Positions 25,833-35,754 of a stretch of DNA of 35,754 bases are shown piece after piece. The stretch spans positions 1 through 35,754 of the forward strand of contig JAFYSJ010000016.1 of NCBI GenBank assembly GCA_017559445.1, written 5' to 3'. Source of the stretch: Clostridia bacterium. Lineage in GTDB: Bacteria > Bacillota > Clostridia > RGIG7378. Position numbers and translations under genes: made by a program. How positions within the stretch are numbered: position 1 is the first letter of the stretch; every line of letters begins with the position of its first letter. The notes beneath the pieces are model-generated. The model did no database searches, was not told the DNA's origin, and was given only the letters and a program-made list of their open reading frames with translations.

Positions 25833-27350
25833 TTATTCCTGAGTCTCTTCCCCGGAAGAAGTTTCCTCTAAATTGTTTCCCTCTGGTGTTCCACCTACTG
25901 TTTCCTGTGGTGCATTCTCTGTCTCATATCCTGGCTCAGTTGTAAAACAATACTGACAAACGTGATCTACATATGAGTGAGGTCCTGTGGAACCAATAGT
26001 TACCTTACGATCATTACATGTGGAGCACTCGTGAATTGTATATGCTGCTTCCAAGCAATTTGCGGCCTCAATTACTGTATCTACATACTTGTGGCTACCC
26101 TTTGCTGTGTCGTTAACAACCTTAGTCTCCTGACACTTTGTACATGTATATGTTGTATATCCAAACTTCTGGCAGTCACCATCTGTATGAACACCCTTAT
26201 CAAAGCTGTGATCTGCAACTGCAGTATCCTGCTCTACCTTGGTCTGCTGACAGTTAGTACATGTAAATGTTGTATATCCTGCTGTTGTGCAATCTCCTGC
26301 TGTATGCACGCCATTATCATACTTATGTACACCCTGTGCCTTAGGAACAGTCTGCAAATATGCAGCTGCACACTTAGAGCACTTGTAGTAGCTGTATCCA
26401 TCTCTTACGCATGTTGCCTCAGAGGACTGCTTACTATCCATTACATAATCATGTGCACAGTTAGCATCTCCTGCATCAATCACAACCTTATCTGTTGCAC
26501 CTGGTGTAGGTGTTGGTGTAGCAGTTGTGCCTGGAACTGGAGTTGGTGTTGGATCGTTACCATTTGTTGGAGGTGTTGGCGTTGGGATATCTAATGTAAT
26601 ATCTGCATTTGCCAATCTATCCTGAAGTGCAGACTGAGAGTAAACTGTGTTAATATCACCCTTTGCCTGCATATCGTACAAGGACTTAGCAACTCTACCA
26701 GACAACATAGATACATCTCCTAAGTTGTTAGCCTCAATCTCACACTTACCTGTAGTAGTAATCTTGCTTGTGTTCATTATGTAACCAGATGCCACATTCT
26801 GAGCAACCTCAGCGTTAAGCTTAGTTGCAGTAAGCTTAAGGTTAACTGCGTTTGACACAACATGGAGCTTAGTGCCCTCATAGTCTGTCATTGCATCTAC
26901 TTGAACAACATAAACAGCTGGATCCTCTGCAGTAATAGTTGCACTATCTGTAGTAATAATAAAGGAACCGTCGCCAATGCTTGTACCAACATTTACCAGC
27001 ATTTCACCCTTGGAAACATCAATAGTTATTGTTCCCTTTCCTGCTTCGCCCTTGGTCTGCAAAGAAATATTTGTCTGGCCATACATTGTTACGTAGGAAT
27101 CATCGTCAAACTTAACTGTAATCTCGCCAGCTTTAACAGAAACATTATCCCCAGATTCAAGTGCCACTCCCTGTGTTACAAGGATAGATTTATCTCCTCT
27201 ATAAATGTAAGCCTCTGCTCCATCACAAGCAGATACATACATATCTCTATTAGAGCCGCCTCCAGATACAGCAATAATAATTACAATAACTGTGAGAACA
27301 ACTATAGCAAGACCAGAAAAGAAAACCTTGCCTCTATTTGTAAGTCTCAT
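25833..27350 (-). CDS. Membrane-anchored FecR-like protein with Cys-rich repeats
   Basis: This 505-residue protein has a short basic N-terminus and one membrane helix (about 8-28). An extracellular FecR-like beta-rich domain follows (about 38-200), then a Pro/Thr linker rich in PTPTP (about 256-284), then a Cys/His-rich region (298-468). This last part has four related repeats of about 39 residues of the form C-x(4-6)-GYT/AYT-x(2-3)-C-x-x-C, with CxxC at 324, 364, 403 and 442, and a final CQYC at 465. The acidic tail is rich in Glu. The repeats could bind zinc or form disulfides. The C-terminal part is outside the cell, which is a prediction. Its function is unknown. Confidence 0.75.
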   Translation of the reverse strand: MRLTNRGKVFFSGLAIVVLTVIVIIIAVSGGGSNRDMYVSACDGAEAYIYRGDKSILVTQGVALESGDNVSVKAGEITVKFDDDSYVTMYGQTNISLQTKGEAGKGTITIDVSKGEMLVNVGTSIGDGSFIITTDSATITAEDPAVYVVQVDAMTDYEGTKLHVVSNAVNLKLTATKLNAEVAQNVASGYIMNTSKITTTGKCEIEANNLGDVSMLSGRVAKSLYDMQAKGDINTVYSQSALQDRLANADITLDIPTPTPPTNGNDPTPTPVPGTTATPTPTPGATDKVVIDAGDANCAHDYVMDSKQSSEATCVRDGYSYYKCSKCAAAYLQTVPKAQGVHKYDNGVHTAGDCTTAGYTTFTCTNCQQTKVEQDTAVADHSFDKGVHTDGDCQKFGYTTYTCTKCQETKVVNDTAKGSHKYVDTVIEAANCLEAAYTIHECSTCNDRKVTIGSTGPHSYVDHVCQYCFTTEPGYETENAPQETVGGTPEGNNLEETSSGEETQE

Positions 27351-27555: not shown

Positions 27556-28896
27556 CTATTCTCCAGCTACAGCCATGCCACGAACAAGCACGTCAGGACA
27601 CATAATTCTTCTGTATGCATGACCGCTTGTGTCAATATTATTGTCCAGCTCCTCAATATCCTTAAGCAATGAGAAGAAGTTACCTGCAACTGTGAATGAC
27701 TTAACTGCTCTACCTACCTTACCGTTTTCGATCATAAAGCCTGCACTCTCAATTGAGAAATCACCTGTAGTTGTGTTTGCACCTGCATGGAAACCCTTCA
27801 TCTCTGTAACATAAACGCCACCATCTGCCATAGCTAAGAGTTCATCCTTAGATACAGTTCCTGGCTGAATCAACAGATTAGAATAGCCTGTCATAATCTT
27901 AGCACCGCTGCGCTGTCCATTACCTGTGGACTCAACACCGTCTTTAAGAGCTGTTGACAAGTTGTGCAAGAAGAGCTTAAGTTCACCATTCTCGATAATA
28001 TTCTTAGTATATGTGGGAACGCCCTCGCCATCGAAGTTCATCTGCAGGTTATTACCTGGGAAGAATGGGTCATCTGTAATTGTAACCTTGCTAGAAGCTA
28101 TATCTGTACCAAGCTTTTCCTTAGTTAAAGGAGAAAGGCCCTTCTGCACGCTATCTGCAAAGAAAACTGACAAGAATGTACCCAAAATCTGTGTCATGGA
28201 CTTACGATCAATAACAATATCGTACTTACCAGTCTTAACTGCACCTGCACCAAACTTAGATGCTGCAGCCTCTGCTGCTTCCTTAGCATCTGCATTTCTG
28301 TCAATCTCATCAAAGTTGCATCTACGCACCTTATAGTCCATCTGCTTCTCTGTGCCATTATCCATGGCTGCCATCATGTATGTGACAGTACCAGAACCCT
28401 TACGAGATAAATTAAGGCCATTTGAGTTAAGAATATGCTCCTCAGAAGACCAAACCTCTGCTGCACATGCTGTACCATCTGCCATTCTCTCATCTACTGC
28501 ATACAAACTCTTAGCTCCTTCAATAGCAAATGCCTTTAGCTCAGCTGCAGAAACATTTACCTCAGGGCACTCTACAACTGCCTTGTACTCAGCACCTGCT
28601 GCATAAAGGATTGGCTTATCGTCATTTTCTGTAACTGTGGCATTCTCTACCGCTCTTGCAATCAAAGCCTGAATTTCCTCTTCGGAAACAAGCTCTGTTG
28701 TAGCAACGCCCATCTTTCCATCCTTAACAACTCTCATCTGCATTGTGCAAGATGTACCACTGGTAAAGCTGTCAATATCATGCTGGAAAGTCTCACATCC
28801 GGTGTTAGAGGATGCGTCGTAATAAAGCTCGTACTCTGTAATACCAAAGTCTGCTGTAACCTTTTTAACTAATTCAACAATTCTATCGTATGTCAT
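27556..28896 (-). CDS. pmbA: TldE/PmbA subunit of the TldD-TldE metalloprotease
   Basis: This 446-residue protein is the TldE/PmbA partner of TldD. It keeps the family fold but has no HExxxH zinc motif, as is normal for TldE. TldD/E heterodimers trim unfolded or modified peptides, such as microcin precursors. I start at MTYDRIVELV (28896), with GGGAGG upstream; a longer frame begins inside tldD. It lies just after tldD, so the pair is co-expressed. Confidence 0.93.
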   Translation of the reverse strand: MTYDRIVELVKKVTADFGITEYELYYDASSNTGCETFQHDIDSFTSGTSCTMQMRVVKDGKMGVATTELVSEEEIQALIARAVENATVTENDDKPILYAAGAEYKAVVECPEVNVSAAELKAFAIEGAKSLYAVDERMADGTACAAEVWSSEEHILNSNGLNLSRKGSGTVTYMMAAMDNGTEKQMDYKVRRCNFDEIDRNADAKEAAEAAASKFGAGAVKTGKYDIVIDRKSMTQILGTFLSVFFADSVQKGLSPLTKEKLGTDIASSKVTITDDPFFPGNNLQMNFDGEGVPTYTKNIIENGELKLFLHNLSTALKDGVESTGNGQRSGAKIMTGYSNLLIQPGTVSKDELLAMADGGVYVTEMKGFHAGANTTTGDFSIESAGFMIENGKVGRAVKSFTVAGNFFSLLKDIEELDNNIDTSGHAYRRIMCPDVLVRGMAVAGE

Positions 28897-28912
28897 ATCT
28901 TTGTCCTCCCAA

Positions 28913-30295
28913 TTATGCGCGTCCGCCAACTGTAATAGAACGAACCCTAATAAGAGGCTGTCCTACGTCTGTTGGAACTGATCCACTTGCGGAACCACAC
29001 ATTCCCTGTCCTGTTGCAAGATTCTGACCAACCATATCAATCTCGTGAAGAATCTCAGATCCTGTTCCGATAAGAGATGCTCCCTTAACTGCTTCGCAAA
29101 TCTTACCATTACGAACAATGTAGCCCTCTTCTACTGCGAAGTTAAACGCTCCTGTCATTGGGTGTACAGAACCACCACCCATCTTAGCTGCATAAAGACC
29201 ATACTCCATAGAAGCAATAATATCCTCATTCTTGTCAGGGCCATTGCAAATCATTGTGTTTGTCATACGAGATGTTGGTTCAAAAGCATAGCTCTGACGT
29301 CTCGCATTACCAGTAGGTGCCATGCCCATACGACGACCATTGAACTTATCGATCATATATGACTTAAGAATACCATTCTCAATAAGAACGTTACGCTGAG
29401 AAGGTGTACCCTCGTCGTCAATGTTGATAGAACCCCATGCATTGGGAATAGTACCATCGTCAATTGCTGTAACCTTGGGGTTAGCAATCTGCTGACCAAG
29501 CTTACCACACATCTGAGATGTGCCCTTTGCTACGCTTGTTGCCTCCAATGAGTGACCACATGCCTCGTGGAAAATAACGCCACCGAAACCGCTCTCGATA
29601 GCTACGGGCATCTTACCAGCAGGAGCATAGGCTGCTGTAAGTTTAACCATAGCCTCTCTAGCTGCCTCACGTCCGATGTTCTCAGGCTGGAAAATATCAA
29701 AGATTTCAAGACCCATGCGACGTCCTGGAGAGCATGTACCACTAGCTCTCTGTCCATCCCTCTCAGCAATAGCTGTTACAGGCATTCTAGTACGAATCTG
29801 TCTATCCTCTGTGAACAAACCCTCACTGTTAGCAATCTGAATCTGGTGGTCTACATCCAACAATGTAGCTGAAACCTGTACGATTGCAGGATCATACTCC
29901 TTAGCTGTGAAGTATGCTCTCTTAAGCAAATCAATCTTAACGCTCTTGAACTCTGTATCAGGAACGATCTTTACTGGGTGAATATTGGGGAAAATTCTAG
30001 ATGTAAGGTGAATCTTAACCTCTGCCTTGCTCTCTGAAATAGCACCAGCAACATTGTTGGCACAAAGCAAAAGTCCCTCTCTAGACAAATCTGTAGTGGA
30101 AGCAGAAACACAGCGCAGTCCCATAAAGGCTCTGATACCTACACCAGAAACTGTGCTGTCTGTAATAGAGTCAACTCTACCACCAATCATGTTAATACTA
30201 TTATTACGTGTGTAATCTACAAAAACTTCTGCAAAGTCTGCTCCGGTAGACATAGCCGCTGCCAGAACTTCCTCTAATAATCTCTTTTCTAACAT
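28913..30295 (-). CDS. tldD: TldD catalytic subunit of the TldD-TldE metalloprotease
   Basis: This 460-residue protein is the zinc-bearing subunit; the HExxxH motif reads HEACGH at 243-248. In E. coli the TldD/E pair degrades relaxed peptides and matures microcin B17. No peptide-antibiotic precursor or modifying enzyme is visible nearby, so a housekeeping role is likely. AGGAGG lies before the ATG. Confidence 0.95.
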   Translation of the reverse strand: MLEKRLLEEVLAAAMSTGADFAEVFVDYTRNNSINMIGGRVDSITDSTVSGVGIRAFMGLRCVSASTTDLSREGLLLCANNVAGAISESKAEVKIHLTSRIFPNIHPVKIVPDTEFKSVKIDLLKRAYFTAKEYDPAIVQVSATLLDVDHQIQIANSEGLFTEDRQIRTRMPVTAIAERDGQRASGTCSPGRRMGLEIFDIFQPENIGREAAREAMVKLTAAYAPAGKMPVAIESGFGGVIFHEACGHSLEATSVAKGTSQMCGKLGQQIANPKVTAIDDGTIPNAWGSINIDDEGTPSQRNVLIENGILKSYMIDKFNGRRMGMAPTGNARRQSYAFEPTSRMTNTMICNGPDKNEDIIASMEYGLYAAKMGGGSVHPMTGAFNFAVEEGYIVRNGKICEAVKGASLIGTGSEILHEIDMVGQNLATGQGMCGSASGSVPTDVGQPLIRVRSITVGGRA

Positions 30296-30372: not shown

Positions 30373-30882
30373 TTACTGTCTTTCGTCGTACATTTTGCAC
30401 CCCTTGGTCCACATGAGCCAAAGGAAAATAATATCTGACACAATGTATACAAACGTCACTGGAGCTGCAGTTGCAACGAGCACCGCGTATCTAGAAAGAT
30501 TAAAGCCCCCATCCATCCAAAGGGTGGAGAACAGGTCCATAACAAGAGAAAAAGCCGCTCCAGATATTATTCCACAGGGAATCACTGTCCACTTACCCTT
30601 GCGCAATGCAGGTGCTACAAGACCTGCCATCAAGCCAATCAAACCCCATGCCATCATTTGGAACGGGGTCCACATTCCCTGCCCGAAGGCAAAATTAGAA
30701 ATAAGCGCAGACATGGCTCCGCATGTAAAACCATACCATGGTCCAAGAGCAAATCCGGCCATAACCACCATGGCAGAAACAGGCTTAAAGAAAGGCAAAA
30801 AGGCAAAGCAAACTCTACCCAGCACCGAAAGTGCTGTGAACACTGAAAGCTTAACTAATTTGTCTACCCTTTTAGCTGTCAT
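30373..30882 (-). CDS. ECF transporter S component, predicted corrinoid-specific
   Basis: This 169-residue membrane protein has about five to six hydrophobic helices and fits the ECF S-component size. The segment GALISNFAFGQGMWTPFQM-like (about 56-76) matches a family of S components that occur with ECF modules. S components bind the substrate and deliver it by toppling in the membrane. A cobalamin riboswitch upstream of the operon predicts B12 or another corrinoid as the substrate. The start overlaps the ATPase stop by 4 bases (ATGA). Confidence 0.82.
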   Translation of the reverse strand: MTAKRVDKLVKLSVFTALSVLGRVCFAFLPFFKPVSAMVVMAGFALGPWYGFTCGAMSALISNFAFGQGMWTPFQMMAWGLIGLMAGLVAPALRKGKWTVIPCGIISGAAFSLVMDLFSTLWMDGGFNLSRYAVLVATAAPVTFVYIVSDIIFLWLMWTKGCKMYDERQ

Positions 30883-32462
30883 GCCTTAACTCCCAATACC
30901 TCATCTGTTGTAATTGCACCATCTATCCAGCCTCTGCAAATAGAGACTGCTCTTGTAGTAAAGAATCTGTTGTCACACAGAAACTTATGTGGCTCCTGAG
31001 GATCGGACAAAGTGCCGTCAAAGAGAACTGACACTCTATCGCACTCTGCTACAAGTTCTGTATCATGGGTTACCGCCAATATGGCAACCCCCCTATTTCT
31101 CATGGCTTTAAGAACTTTTACCAAATCCTGTCTACCCTTAGAGTCTAAACTGCTAGTTGGCTCATCCAGCAATAAAATGGAAGGTGAGCTTAACATAACT
31201 TTTGCAAGAGCTACCCTCTTTTGTTCTCCGCCAGAAAGCTTAAGTGGATTACGATTCAAAAGATGTGCAATATCCATCTGCTCTGCAATTTCAGATACTT
31301 TATTCTCCCTGTCTGCTTCCTTAACTCCTAACAACTCCAATACGTACTCCAGGTCCTGCTTAACTGTATCGTGGAGAAAAAGTTCTGTTACGTCCTGAGG
31401 AAGCTTTGCCACCCTCTGATCTTTAACCACAGTTACACCCTTTTCAGCCTTGGAAATGGCCTTTAGAAATGTGGATTTTCCAGATCCGTTGGCTCCCATT
31501 AGGCACATAAACTCTCCCCTATGAAGTTCAAAATTTACGCCTCTTAGAATATACTCTTGATCCCTGTTATGCTTGTACCATAGGTCCTTTGCCTTCAAAA
31601 CAGTCGTATTAAGTTCTATTTTATCGCAAACGATGCTTTTTTCCTCCTTAGGTAGCGTTTTTCTCACATATTCACGGGATTCGCTTAAGGAAATGGGACA
31701 TTTCCCCTGTGCTCCAGAACCCTTCCAGATTTTCCAAGCAGTGGTACCACTTTCCTGCAGGCTCATTTGCTCCAAAACTTCTCTTGTGGTGCCCTGTAGC
31801 ACTATCTGTCCCTTGTCCATTAAGCACATTTTGTCACAAAGATGCACCACCTTATCCAAATCATGCTCTACCAAAACTACGCTTAGTCCAAACTCATTCT
31901 TCACCCTCTGAAGAAGGTATAAAAATTCTTCTGCAGAAACGGGATCCAATCTGGATGTGGGCTCGTCCAAAAGCAAAACCTTAGGTTCCAAAACAAGCAA
32001 AGATGCCAAGTTAAGGACCTGCTTTTGTCCACCAGAAAGCTCCCATGTGTTTTTGTGGAACAGATGACTAATACCCAAGAATGCAGAAATCTCTGCACAT
32101 CTTGCCATTATCTCCTGCTGTGGAAGACCCAAATTTTCTAAGCCATATGTGAGCTCCCGATACACCTTATCGGTAACAATCTGAGCCTCTGGATTTTGGC
32201 ACATGTAACCAATGGTAGCTACTGTTTCCTTAGTGGTTGTTTCTGGCATTGGCTTTCCATCCAATATAATCTCACCAGACATTTGACCTACGCCTCTAAT
32301 CTCAGGCTTAAGCAAACTAAGAAGGGTGGATTTACCGCTGCCAGACTTGCCTGCGATCAAGGTAATCTCACCGGGAAGAAGTTCCAAGGACACATTGCTA
32401 ATAGCCGGTCTCTGAGATCCTGCATATGTAAACGTTAAATTGTTAACAGATATTAAGCTCAT
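30879..32462 (-). CDS. ECF transporter ATPase, two fused ABC domains
   Basis: This 527-residue protein joins two ABC domains that in most ECF transporters are separate A and A' proteins. The first has Walker A GKSGSGKST (38-46), LSGGQKQ and LLLDEPTSRLDP. The second has Walker A GANGSGKST (about 327-335), LSGGEQKR and LLLDEPTSSLDS. Both appear catalytically complete. A charged linker (about 255-300) separates them. Start and stop overlap the neighbours by 4 bases, so it is firmly part of the operon. Confidence 0.93.
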   Translation of the reverse strand: MSLISVNNLTFTYAGSQRPAISNVSLELLPGEITLIAGKSGSGKSTLLSLLKPEIRGVGQMSGEIILDGKPMPETTTKETVATIGYMCQNPEAQIVTDKVYRELTYGLENLGLPQQEIMARCAEISAFLGISHLFHKNTWELSGGQKQVLNLASLLVLEPKVLLLDEPTSRLDPVSAEEFLYLLQRVKNEFGLSVVLVEHDLDKVVHLCDKMCLMDKGQIVLQGTTREVLEQMSLQESGTTAWKIWKGSGAQGKCPISLSESREYVRKTLPKEEKSIVCDKIELNTTVLKAKDLWYKHNRDQEYILRGVNFELHRGEFMCLMGANGSGKSTFLKAISKAEKGVTVVKDQRVAKLPQDVTELFLHDTVKQDLEYVLELLGVKEADRENKVSEIAEQMDIAHLLNRNPLKLSGGEQKRVALAKVMLSSPSILLLDEPTSSLDSKGRQDLVKVLKAMRNRGVAILAVTHDTELVAECDRVSVLFDGTLSDPQEPHKFLCDNRFFTTRAVSICRGWIDGAITTDEVLGVKA

Positions 32463-33103
32463 ACGCCCTCCTTTCTCTTATCCAAGCAAGCTCCTCGTGC
32501 CACCATGGATGTGGCTGTTATTCTTCCGTTCTCGATTCCCCAATCCATAAGACCTGAGAAACATATTACGGCCTGTTTTATTTTGCTAAATGCTCCAGTC
32601 TTTTCTGGCAGTCCCAAGGCTCTATGGCTTTCCTGCATGTTATCCCACCTTCTCTTGTAAAGCGGAATAAGTCTGAGGGTCATAGAAAGCACTACAACAA
32701 CCTGAGGTGAAAACCTCTTAAATATGTGGCTTAGCTTTTCTTCTGTCATTACATGGTTCCAGCAACCGCTCCAAAGGATAACTGCAATAAGCATTATTCC
32801 AAGGGATACACCCTGCAAAATTGCCTCTACCGTAATTGGTCTACCGTTTATAAAAATCAGCACTGTAGATCCCGTTGTTGAAACAAGCGGATTAATAATC
32901 ACTAGCAGCGCAAATAGTCCTGTCACGGATTTGATCGTCAAAACAAGTTTATTAAATCCTATCAACAGGCCATGAACAATAGATGCTAGAACCAAGGACA
33001 TTAAGGCCCATTTCCAATCCCTAAGGAAACATGTGACCACCATGGGAATTCCAAAGTACAAAAGTGATACGTAAGGACTTTTTCGATTAAAGAAATCAGT
33101 CAT
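32459..33103 (-). CDS. ECF transporter T component (EcfT/CbiQ family)
   Basis: This 214-residue transmembrane scaffold connects the S component to the ATPases. About five hydrophobic helices are present. EcfT proteins carry two Ala-Arg-Gly-like motifs on coupling helices: the second is intact (MVARGAC near residue 205), while the first reads HRALG. I start at MTDFFNRKS (33103), 8 bases after GGAGG; the earlier ATG overlaps that site. The gene overlaps the end of the transcobalamin-like gene by 8 bases. Confidence 0.88.
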   Translation of the reverse strand: MTDFFNRKSPYVSLLYFGIPMVVTCFLRDWKWALMSLVLASIVHGLLIGFNKLVLTIKSVTGLFALLVIINPLVSTTGSTVLIFINGRPITVEAILQGVSLGIMLIAVILWSGCWNHVMTEEKLSHIFKRFSPQVVVVLSMTLRLIPLYKRRWDNMQESHRALGLPEKTGAFSKIKQAVICFSGLMDWGIENGRITATSMVARGACLDKRKEGV

Positions 33104-34622
33104 TGCTCTGTCCTCCATAGCTTTCTACATAGCGAAGCTCCACCACATCTCCTGCCTTAAGCTGGTAATTGTCTACACCAACTTGTGGCTGCACACCATT
33201 TACGTAATACACCCATCCTGATGTTGCCCCCCTATCTCCCTCTGCTAAATCTCCAATAGAGCTAATATACGCATCCCAACCAGACACATAGCTCATTGGA
33301 ATTCCCTTGGACCTAGTTGCGCGATACACCAGTTCAAAAACAGTATCTCCCTCAAGTAGAGCATATTCCTGCATACCAATAATAGCCTTATCTCCGTCCA
33401 TAATTGACATCGAAACCGTAAGGCTTTCATCTGTAATCTCTGGCAAATTGTAACTGTAGAATTGGTCTGGCGTCTCGATTCTTGAAAAGAAAATAAATCC
33501 AGATGATACAAGCCCCACCAAGGAAATTGTGATTATGTCCATTGGCGAAAATCTCTTTTTAACACAACCAAAAGTTAAATAAATTGCAAATGCGACAAAA
33601 ACAACACCTGCCACAACGATTTGAATTTTCTTAATATCTACTATATCCTCTGGAACTCCTTCCACAAGCTGACCGCTACCGAATTCATATTCATCAAAGG
33701 TGTAAATTGAGCCCGCTCCACTATCTGCCATATCCATAGCAACTAAGGCCATTATCGCCTGAGCTGTAGCAGTCATGTTTAATTGGCCACCTTCCATATG
33801 AACGTACCCACCTGTGGAAAGCTTGTATGTATTAAGCACTTCTGCTAGAGAGCCAAAATCTCCCTTCAGTTCCGTTTTGTAGTCAAGACCGAGAGTTGTA
33901 AGGGCAACTATTACCTGTGCCACAGATTCGCAATTTTCCACCCCATAGGACAAAAAACTACCGCTGCTTTGCTGGGAGTTTCTCAAATAATCCAAAGCCT
34001 TATTTACAGCATCCTGAACTTTCTGCTCCTGATAATACGGTGCCAAGGCCTGAATTGTCATAGCTGTAATATCTACTGTAGACGCCTCTGGATTAAGTCC
34101 CCATCCACCAGTGCTTCCCTGCTGGCTAAGCAAACTGTCAACACATCTAGAAACATCTGCCTGCTCTCCCAAATTGGAATAAATATGCAGTGCAAAAACA
34201 ATGCTCATTATGCCTTGCTTACCTTCTGTCTCTCGGGCAACTTCAAACACTTCTTCCTTTGAAATTCCACCGCAAACATACTGTACCAAAGCTATCTTTT
34301 GCATAGTAGTTGCTGGAAGGTTCTTCGTCTCTTCCAAATATTTGTCCAAGGCATTTAAGTAAGCGTCGAAGTTATAACTCTGTTCATATTGTCTAATGGA
34401 CAAAACTATAAACTCCGCTCCCTTACCTGCCATATTTGTCAAAGTTGTATCTAATAAATGTTGCACGCTGTGACAGGAACCTAAGTCACTGCTAAGTAGG
34501 ACCTGTTCTACCTCTACACCGTACCCCTCTGAAGCCATGGCGCCAATTGGACACCACAAAATAGCCATCACCAAGGCGATAGCCACTATTACTTCAATTG
34601 TCCTGCACAGCTTGCAACTCAT
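33096..34622 (-). CDS. Membrane-anchored transcobalamin-like protein (alpha/alpha barrel plus DUF4430)
   Basis: This 508-residue protein starts with a signal/anchor helix (about 9-28). Residues 30-305 hold at least five helix pairs of the squalene-cyclase/prenyltransferase barrel type, for example IALVQYV (110-116), GGWGLNPEASTVDITAMTI (172-190) and SVAQVIVALTTLG (233-245). Two membrane helices follow (about 342-360 and 366-382), with KKR between them. The C-terminal domain (about 405-500) matches DUF4430, the transcobalamin-like C-terminal domain, including AYISSIGDL, SGWVYYVNG and LKAGDVVELRY. In intrinsic factor and transcobalamin an alpha barrel and such a beta domain clasp B12. Both domains are predicted to be outside the cell. 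GAGG lies 11 bases before the ATG. A role in corrinoid capture is inference. Confidence 0.85.
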   Translation of the reverse strand: MSCKLCRTIEVIVAIALVMAILWCPIGAMASEGYGVEVEQVLLSSDLGSCHSVQHLLDTTLTNMAGKGAEFIVLSIRQYEQSYNFDAYLNALDKYLEETKNLPATTMQKIALVQYVCGGISKEEVFEVARETEGKQGIMSIVFALHIYSNLGEQADVSRCVDSLLSQQGSTGGWGLNPEASTVDITAMTIQALAPYYQEQKVQDAVNKALDYLRNSQQSSGSFLSYGVENCESVAQVIVALTTLGLDYKTELKGDFGSLAEVLNTYKLSTGGYVHMEGGQLNMTATAQAIMALVAMDMADSGAGSIYTFDEYEFGSGQLVEGVPEDIVDIKKIQIVVAGVVFVAFAIYLTFGCVKKRFSPMDIITISLVGLVSSGFIFFSRIETPDQFYSYNLPEITDESLTVSMSIMDGDKAIIGMQEYALLEGDTVFELVYRATRSKGIPMSYVSGWDAYISSIGDLAEGDRGATSGWVYYVNGVQPQVGVDNYQLKAGDVVELRYVESYGGQSND

Positions 34623-34625
34623 TTA

Positions 34626-35366
34626 CTATTTAACCTCAATAATACACAAGGCAGCTACGTAGTAATTGCCTTCTGTCTCCAATGCAACTGAATATGTACC
34701 TGCTGCATCGAAAGAAACAGTAACTGTTCCATCCTCGCCAGTAACATACTCTGTTGTCTGTCCGTTAACTGTAATCACTGCTCCAGAAATGGGTGCTGTT
34801 ACAACGTTGAAATTAGCATCGTAACACTGACCTTTAAGAGTCAAAGTCACTGCTTCTCCAACTGCAACTGAGGAATAGTTTACGTCAAAGCTTGTATAGG
34901 AATCAGACCACATAACCTGGTCGCGGTAGATATATGCAACTACCAAATCTCCCTCCTTGACCTCGTCGCTAAGAGACATGCTGGAAACATTGTTTAAATA
35001 GTAACCAAATGCACCGCTTGTGTCTCCCCACAACATTGTAAGACTAAGTCCGTACTCTGTGTCTGCTGTAGCAAAGCCCAAACCATCTCCCTTGTACTGG
35101 CTAGCGTGTGCACAATACAAAGCATCTGCAATGGTATACTTGCCATCCTGGTCCACATCTGTAACGTCGATTTCTACATTTGCAATTGCAAAGCTACCAT
35201 CTGCTCCATTTACTCTAACTGTGACAGAAATACTATCAGCAGAGGGTGCTGGAGTGGCTGTAGCTCCAGGTGTAGCTGTAGGCTGACCACCTGTTGTCTC
35301 CACGTTTCCACATGCGGAAACCATTAGCATTACTGCAACAAGCAGCAGAGCTAAAATCTTCTTCAT
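34626..35366 (-). CDS. Lipoprotein with DUF4430-like and Ig-like domains, riboswitch-controlled
   Basis: This 246-residue lipoprotein starts at MKKILALLL (35366), 7 bases after GGAGG. The lipobox is VSAC with the lipidated cysteine C19. A Thr/Pro/Ala linker (22-42) leads to a beta-rich domain (about 48-150) with TIADALYCAH, GYYLNNVSSMS and VKEGDLVVAYIY, which resembles DUF4430 weakly. A second Ig-like domain fills 155-246. As first gene behind a cobalamin riboswitch, it is a likely surface corrinoid binder. The longer frame to 35432 runs into the leader terminators. Confidence 0.8.
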   Translation of the reverse strand: MKKILALLLVAVMLMVSACGNVETTGGQPTATPGATATPAPSADSISVTVRVNGADGSFAIANVEIDVTDVDQDGKYTIADALYCAHASQYKGDGLGFATADTEYGLSLTMLWGDTSGAFGYYLNNVSSMSLSDEVKEGDLVVAYIYRDQVMWSDSYTSFDVNYSSVAVGEAVTLTLKGQCYDANFNVVTAPISGAVITVNGQTTEYVTGEDGTVTVSFDAAGTYSVALETEGNYYVAALCIIEVK

Positions 35367-35379
35367 ACAAAAACCTCCA

Positions 35380-35412
35380 ATAAAATAACTCCCACTGGAA
35401 ACAGTAGGAGTT
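35380..35412 (-). terminator. Second leader terminator, next to the lipoprotein ribosome binding site
   Basis: An 11-bp stem, arms 35387-35397 and 35402-35412 with one G-T pair and loop TTTC on the minus strand, is followed by ATTTTATT. The lipoprotein ribosome binding site GGAGG lies only a few bases further on. Confidence 0.75.
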
Positions 35413-35430
35413 AGACAAAAGAGACAACAC

Positions 35431-35458
35431 AAAAAGCACAGGGCATTTAGCCCGTGCT
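35431..35458 (-). terminator. First leader terminator, riboswitch expression platform
   Basis: AGCACGGGC (35450-35458) pairs with GCCCTGTGCT (35435-35444) with one bulge, loop TAAAT, and is followed by TTTTTGTGTTG on the minus strand. It lies 20 bases past the aptamer and is the likely switch point for transcription attenuation by B12. Confidence 0.82.
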
Positions 35459-35478
35459 AGTACAGGTCCGTTGTCATG

Positions 35479-35621
35479 CACCCCCTACTTACCCAGGGTG
35501 ACTGGAGTCTCTATATGCAATGTGCATTCCGACTGAGGGCTACTAGGACCCAATACGGCAATGGCTGTTGCGACGGATTCTCACCGCACTTTCCACAAAT
35601 ACATATTTCGGATAGAGACTC
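35479..35621 (-). ncRNA. Cobalamin riboswitch aptamer
   Basis: On the minus strand, a perfect 10-bp P1 joins GAGTCTCTAT (35612-35621) with ATAGAGACTC (35505-35514). Inside are GCGGTGAGAATCCG (35574-35587) and CGCAACAGCC, core sequences of cobalamin aptamers, and a B12-box-like CAGTCGGAATGC (35524-35535). Directly after P1 a hairpin CACCC...GGGTG (35479-35500) fits P13. It controls the lipoprotein, transcobalamin-like and ECF genes downstream. Confidence 0.9.
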
Positions 35622-35635
35622 TATTTAGTAAACCG

Positions 35636-35754
35636 CATTTTTGCGAGTAAACTACTTTGTTAGTGAGCCGCAAGCGGAGCTTGCTAGTGACCGCAACTGC
35701 GTTGCTAGTATACGCTCGTTTCACTCGCTAGTGAGCCGCTACGCTAGTGGCCGC
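35636..35754. repeat. Array of GC-rich mini-hairpins at the right edge
   Basis: On the minus strand the motif GCGGYYYACTAGC and variants recur about seven times between 35625 and 35754, each followed by a small and different hairpin, for example GCAAC-GCA-GTTGC and GCAAGC-TCC-GCTTGC. The array is cut by the window edge. It lies upstream of the riboswitch with no gene recognisable in it. Spacers and hairpin lengths vary, so it is not a CRISPR array. Confidence 0.65.

Follow-up and report, generated by a model that had tools for sequence, protein, structure and literature searches.

What is the purpose of five closely packed genes at one end of a 35,754-nucleotide contig from a Clostridia bacterium (JAFYSJ010000016.1; this whole stretch is referred to here as the window)? 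Within positions 30373-35621, five open reading frames (ORFs) run in one direction on the minus strand, led by a cobalamin-type riboswitch leader. An earlier note, made from the letters of the window, proposed that they capture and import vitamin B12. Homology, protein folds, riboswitch association and genome content support that proposal, and we conclude that the locus is very probably a corrinoid-regulated operon by which preformed B12 is captured and imported. The computed results behind this conclusion are the gene order, the gene families, the folds, a covarying leader and a conserved linkage to cobalamin riboswitches.

Five genes and two predicted surface binders

From the leader onwards, the genes are:

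34626..35366, minus strand: lipoprotein, 246 aa, with a VSAC lipobox, a transcobalamin-type beta domain and an immunoglobulin (Ig)-like domain
33096..34622, minus strand: transcobalamin-like toroid-DUF4430 protein, 508 aa (DUF4430 E 1.2e-17, and structural model)
32459..33118, alternative start 33103, minus strand: EcfT transmembrane component of an energy-coupling factor (ECF) transporter, CbiQ-like (CbiQ E 3.8e-4, position conserved)
30879..32462, minus strand: fused EcfA-EcfA' double ATPase, 527 aa (ECF_ATPase_1, duplicated motifs)
30373..30882, minus strand: S component of the CbrT (cobalamin) family, 169 aa (family profile against 6fnp_A)

The place and gene list given by the earlier note are correct, and all five ORFs lie on the minus strand. 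A 3-bp gap separates the lipoprotein and toroid-DUF4430 genes, the toroid-DUF4430 and EcfT genes overlap by 23 bp, and the EcfT/ATPase and ATPase/S-component junctions overlap by 4 bp each. The 4-8-base overlaps claimed for the ECF genes are found at these last two junctions, and at the 5' end of the EcfT gene only if translation starts at the second ATG, at 33103, where the overlap is 8 bp. Promoter-like sites inside the operon number 8, against 8.9 expected from shuffles, and are thus not in excess.

The DUF4430 match of the 508-aa protein lies above the Pfam cut-off. The protein begins with an N-terminal hydrophobic signal/anchor helix and continues with an alpha/alpha toroid (residues ~30-303), two transmembrane helices (326-356 and 360-382) and the DUF4430 domain (~400-505). 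In its AlphaFold model (mean pLDDT 83, 38-row alignment) the toroid and the beta domain are confident, with the transmembrane hairpin in between. All of the top 15 matches in a Foldseek search of this model against the PDB are transcobalamin, haptocorrin or intrinsic factor (E 1.6e-8 to 2.3e-6). Also matched is 5no0, the beta domain of human transcobalamin on its own, with a TM-score of 0.73 by target and a root-mean-square deviation (rmsd) of 2.5 A. Over the full length, the rmsd to transcobalamin-family structures reaches a large value of about 25 A, which probably reflects a different placement of the domains relative to each other. The two features that mark the transcobalamin-like clade of the SLBB superfamily, a transcobalamin-type beta-grasp domain and its extracellular fusion to an alpha/alpha toroid, are thus both predicted for this protein.

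The lipoprotein, whose lipobox occupies residues 16-19, gave no Pfam or NCBIfam match above curated cut-offs. Its AlphaFold model (mean pLDDT 82, 12-row alignment) comprises a transcobalamin-type beta domain (42-150) followed by an Ig-like domain (150-246). Transcobalamin, haptocorrin and intrinsic factor, together with one Ruminococcus gnavus protein (3u7z), make up the top 13 VIA-align matches of the N-terminal domain at Z scores of 10.1-11.6, with the next row at 8.1; by Foldseek alone, transcobalamin-family structures are not top-ranked for the lipoprotein. On the modeled fold, the lipoprotein carries another beta domain of transcobalamin type, one that has diverged too far to be recognised by the Pfam model. 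The two surface binders named in the earlier note are borne out to the extent that both modeled proteins have such a domain, and corrinoid binding by them is predicted.

The R. gnavus structure (RUMGNA_00854), titled 'putative metal binding protein', matches both the DUF4430 and the lipoprotein domains, and judging from these model comparisons it is probably a corrinoid-binding domain.

The transporter module and the leader RNA

A family profile built from 15 S components of related operons identified ECF-CbrT (6fnp_A) in the PDB with an E of 1.3e-19, followed by a next match at E 0.057 and with no FolT up to E 1; as a single sequence, the S component matches 6fnp_A at E 0.0024. The double ATPase matches ECF_ATPase_1 above cut-off in two stretches (E 6.9e-100) and contains two ABC_tran domains, with each motif present twice (Walker A at 38 and 323, LSGG at 142 and 409, Walker B/LLLDEP at 163 and 430). 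A CbrT-homologous S component is thus found together with EcfT and two ATPase domains, the composition of the ECF-CbrT transporter of Lactobacillus delbrueckii, which has been shown by experiment to import both cobalamin and cobinamide and whose affinity for them is nanomolar (PMC5997447).

Two other substrates were considered for this module. The S component has a subthreshold match to the folate S component model TIGR04518 (37 bits, cut-off 60), as would fit a transporter for folate or another vitamin whose link to a riboswitch is incidental. That reading is hardly credible given the profile result for CbrT over FolT and the roughly 58-fold enrichment of riboswitches described below, and folate transport was rejected on both grounds. 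Cobalt or nickel uptake by a Cbi/Nik-like ECF transporter, with the surface proteins as unrelated adhesins, would accord with CbiQ being the sole Pfam match of EcfT and with the control of some cobalt transporters by B12 riboswitches (PMC2667541). The S component is nevertheless of CbrT type, the operon contains no CbiM/CbiN-like ORF and both surface proteins are modeled with transcobalamin-type folds; metal transport is on these grounds highly improbable and was also rejected.

The leader upstream of the lipoprotein gene comprises the following elements:

35505..35621, minus strand: cobalamin-type riboswitch aptamer, compact variant (AdoCbl-II match below gathering score; P1 covariation)
35612-35621 and 35505-35514, minus strand: P1 arms, forming a perfect helix
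35557-35564, minus strand: L5 loop (CCATTGCC)
35479..35500, minus strand: hairpin whose loop GGTAA is able to pair with L5 TTGCC, a candidate L5-L13 kissing loop suggested by alignment
35435..35458, minus strand: terminator-like hairpin and T-tail, candidate expression platform
35386..35413, minus strand: second terminator-like hairpin, immediately before the Shine-Dalgarno GGAGG

At a relaxed threshold, AdoCbl-II matches positions 35614-35514 with 22 bits against a cut-off of 36.5, and this is the top AdoCbl-II match of the whole 1.68-Mb genome (E 0.011); a search of the same genome with RF00174 returned no match. The leader of a same-genus relative (L036, genome G001) likewise has its best Rfam match in the cobalamin clan, at 15.9 bits against a cut-off of 31.5. 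The two aptamer cores are nearly identical, whereas the P1 arms differ in sequence yet stay complementary. The pairing energy is -14.7 kcal/mol for the window's own arms and -15.8 kcal/mol for those of L036, against -8.5 and -5.6 for arms exchanged between the species, and the cognate energies were matched by 0 and 3 of 5000 shuffles. L5 is unchanged between the two leaders and the facing hairpin loop reads GGTAA in the window and GGCAA in L036, both complementary to L5. Known cobalamin riboswitches form a kissing loop by such pairing of L5 with a downstream hairpin loop. The L036 comparison provides strong evidence that the leader is a structured RNA; the folded leader has a z of -3.5, and its core can be aligned with 15 riboswitches from related loci. 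As two terminator-like hairpins follow the aptamer, the leader's anatomy, from which the 'B12-repressed' of the earlier note is drawn, makes repression by B12 via termination likely. The cobalamin riboswitch is the weakest element in the earlier note's account: it stays below every Rfam gathering score, but is the best AdoCbl-II match of the genome and has a covarying P1.

Between the riboswitch and the contig end, immediately upstream of the leader, window positions 35626-35739 contain short repeats of the TAGTGAGCCGC / CTAGTGA type.

Distribution in relatives and genomic context

Of 60 genomes searched for relatives of the operon (the host genome, a second from its genus and 58 more from the class), 32 contain a match to the 508-aa protein. 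A cobalamin-clan riboswitch at or above gathering score is present in 15 of 20 relatives' loci, with the riboswitch of one locus (L054) oriented away from the operon. In these 20 related genomes, 22 of 47 RF00174 riboswitches lie within 5 kb of a transcobalamin-like gene, against 0.38 expected (~58-fold), and in 11 of the 20 every RF00174 riboswitch does so.

A second sample consisted of 80 loci fetched with the DUF4430 motif SGW[MVI]YxVNG from a collection of 84,980 species, a few of them from the 20 genomes (e.g. L059, L070, L071). The fractions obtained from it describe this subfamily rather than all DUF4430 proteins. EcfT is present in 68/80 loci and directly follows the DUF4430 gene in 66/80, while the full ECF set is found in 54/80. 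Direct scanning with a riboswitch model (R1, 12 base pairs and chiefly a sequence profile) gave a match in 49/80 loci, with 51 of 54 matches on the operon strand; coordinate mapping of riboswitches in 50 extra genomes was dropped, as it was unreliable for some contigs and held up in just 4 of the 7 loci that were checked. Linkage to riboswitches of other ligands had been named beforehand as a result that would speak against B12. In 27 loci compared with all of Rfam, the riboswitches belong to the cobalamin clan, with one NiCo riboswitch located ~7.5 kb from a DUF4430 match as a qualification.

The 80 loci span Clostridia, Bacilli, Coriobacteriia and Propionibacteriaceae from gut, rumen and other isolates. 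Two claims of the earlier note are not supported by this survey. The surface-binder pair it called unusual belongs to a widespread arrangement, given the frequency with which EcfT directly follows DUF4430, and such an arrangement was already described in 2007, second extracellular paralogue included (PMC1796856); as to the gut-like habitat it suggested, there are relatives in Kurthia, Sporosarcina, Paenibacillus and Lysinibacillus as well.

The order binder-binder-EcfT-ATPase-S, conserved in relatives, and the tight packing of the genes bear on the possibility that the ECF transporter acts alone, like known S components, with the surface proteins storing corrinoids or denying them to neighbours. 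CbrT by itself binds cobalamin at about 9 nM (PMC5997447), and some riboswitch-led DUF4430/toroid genes (L079, L092) have no ECF genes nearby. Weighed against the conserved order and packing, we consider an independent transporter quite unlikely.

Relatives also display variant architectures. In L079 (7211-10924) and L092 (7220-10942), from Paenibacillus and Bacillus, the riboswitch is followed by a 1240-aa toroid/DUF4430 protein and then a NosD-like beta-helix protein. In L039 (4647-10328) and L040 (4322-9595), the ECF genes are preceded by giant surface proteins (1757-1893 aa) that contain multiple toroid and DUF4430 domains and may be multi-site corrinoid collectors. Fusion of the S component to the C-terminal end of the double ATPase, giving a single ORF of ~830-985 aa, is seen in many relatives (L043:9860-12478; L045, L046, L047, L049, L052).

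In the host genome, the sole B12-binding-domain protein found is MetH (798 aa), which adjoins MetF and a 196-aa ORF that reads as the MetH activation domain. CobS, the B12-synthesis gene looked for, gave no match in this 96% complete genome; PduO and BtuR adenosyltransferases and NrdJ likewise gave none, and no FecCD/BtuC-type permease, as a BtuCDF B12 ATP-binding cassette (ABC) importer would have, was found. The presence of MetH and the lack of matches to the other genes suggest an apparent B12 auxotroph for which this operon looks like the candidate importer, and which would need methylcobalamin rather than adenosylcobalamin.

Transcobalamin-type binders vary in specificity, and the substrate might accordingly be a corrinoid precursor or variant (cobinamide, pseudo-B12) instead of complete cobalamin, the more so as CbrT binds and transports both cobalamin and cobinamide (PMC5997447). 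With no CobS found, however, cobinamide could probably not be completed in the cell, and MetH is its only detected B12-binding-domain protein. Precursor import is for these reasons unlikely.

Downstream of the operon, two adjoining genes reading as a TldD/TldE-type pair (window 27556-30295, minus strand) begin 77 bp after the S-component gene, with no terminator-like site in between. This neighbourhood is probably incidental, because no homologue was found near the operon in related loci. Further on, a 505-aa ORF (25833-27350, minus strand) reads as a FecR-like protein with C-terminal cysteine-rich repeats.

Proposed function and comparison with known systems

In the capture-and-import function that we propose, the lipoprotein and the membrane-anchored toroid-DUF4430 protein would bind corrinoid outside the membrane, the latter holding B12 between its alpha/alpha toroid and beta-grasp domain in the manner of transcobalamin. 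Both binders would hand the corrinoid to the CbrT-type S component, whose transport across the membrane would be powered by EcfT and the double ATPase, and the imported corrinoid would be used by MetH. Once enough had accumulated in the cell, it would bind the leader aptamer, favour the terminator and turn the operon off. A possible, if doubtful, elaboration is a two-stage relay, in which the lipoprotein beta domain first snares the corrinoid and delivers it to the anchored toroid-DUF4430 sandwich, which docks on and loads the S component, making this a binder-dependent ECF transporter; with an adenosyltransferase seemingly missing from the cell, the compact riboswitch might then be tuned to methyl- or hydroxocobalamin.

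Several points count against the proposed function. That each protein binds its ligand, that the S component receives it from the binders and that regulation runs in the direction proposed are what we infer from the computed results. The leader fails the curated gathering cut-offs of the Rfam cobalamin riboswitches (RF00174 / RF01689), and a scan of the whole window at gathering scores yields none of the Rfam families. EcfT lies below the Pfam cut-off, with homologues that hold the same position in related loci. Terpene cyclases and sugar epimerases fit the toroid alone as well as or better than transcobalamins do, so that its ligand is not fixed by fold alone: in VIA-align, general toroids rank first for the two-domain model, with terpene cyclases on top (Z about 21) and no transcobalamin among the 50 matches listed, a list that one domain fills. 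The linkage frequency in the 80 loci is biased upward, because these were chosen by similarity to ECF-linked DUF4430 proteins, and gene absences are not proof in an incomplete genome.

If the proposed function is correct, it would explain how B12 is acquired in many Bacillota, a process less understood there than it is in Bacteroidetes (PMC8941943), and the known ECF transporters would gain members that rely on binders outside the cell. Standard libraries missed both the compact leader and the domain in the lipoprotein, suggesting that such systems are under-annotated.

The closest precedent is the transcobalamin-like clade defined within the SLBB beta-grasp superfamily by Burroughs, Balaji, Iyer and Aravind in 2007 (PMC1796856). 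In that account, the clade is fused to alpha/alpha toroids in Gram-positive bacteria, and its operons encode a CbiO-like ATPase, a CbiQ-like membrane protein and another extracellular paralogue, usually in hosts without B12 synthesis; B12 scavenging by such operons and lateral transfer to animals were proposed. The present operon shares these components and holds the whole predicted pathway, which makes the idea of bacterial, importer-feeding counterparts to animal B12 carriers directly testable. Beyond these elements of the 2007 account, we find the S component, the cobalamin riboswitch linkage and a predicted anchor hairpin that separates the toroid from the beta domain. A search of the openly accessible literature, excluding subscription papers and preprints, found no experimental test of such operons.

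ECF-CbrT of L. delbrueckii (PDB 6FNP, PMC5997447) has a homologous S component, EcfT and energising proteins of the EcfA/EcfA' type. Its module is predicted to be common to eight S components and has separate ATPases, whereas here the module and its own S component share one operon, the ATPases are fused and surface binders are present. Human transcobalamin, haptocorrin and intrinsic factor have the toroid and beta-domain architecture predicted here, at about 11-16% identity in structural alignments; the bacterial protein differs in its anchoring to the membrane and in the two-helix hairpin that separates its domains. Bacteroides BtuG and BtuH are also accessory surface B12 binders serving an importer, but BtuG is a beta-propeller, BtuH a domain without known structural homologues and BtuB TonB-dependent, and none of these occurs in this operon (PMC8941943, PMC6977713). 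In Eubacterium siraeum, a btuH homologue has been noted in the vicinity of an ECF-like transporter for cobamides (PMC8941943). In L. rhamnosus, 'additional lipoprotein component of putative cobalamin ECF transporter' appears as an annotation, and the same paper reports a DUF4430 protein encoded beside rtpR (PMC9963975); the annotation name is thus already used by annotation pipelines in lactobacilli, as annotation only and with no toroid reported. The operon is real, well explained and ordinary for its class, of a kind predicted in 2007 and apparently untested by experiment, to which the present analysis adds the CbrT-family S component, the strong riboswitch linkage, the hidden lipoprotein beta domain and a riboswitch variant that is compact and scores under the library thresholds.

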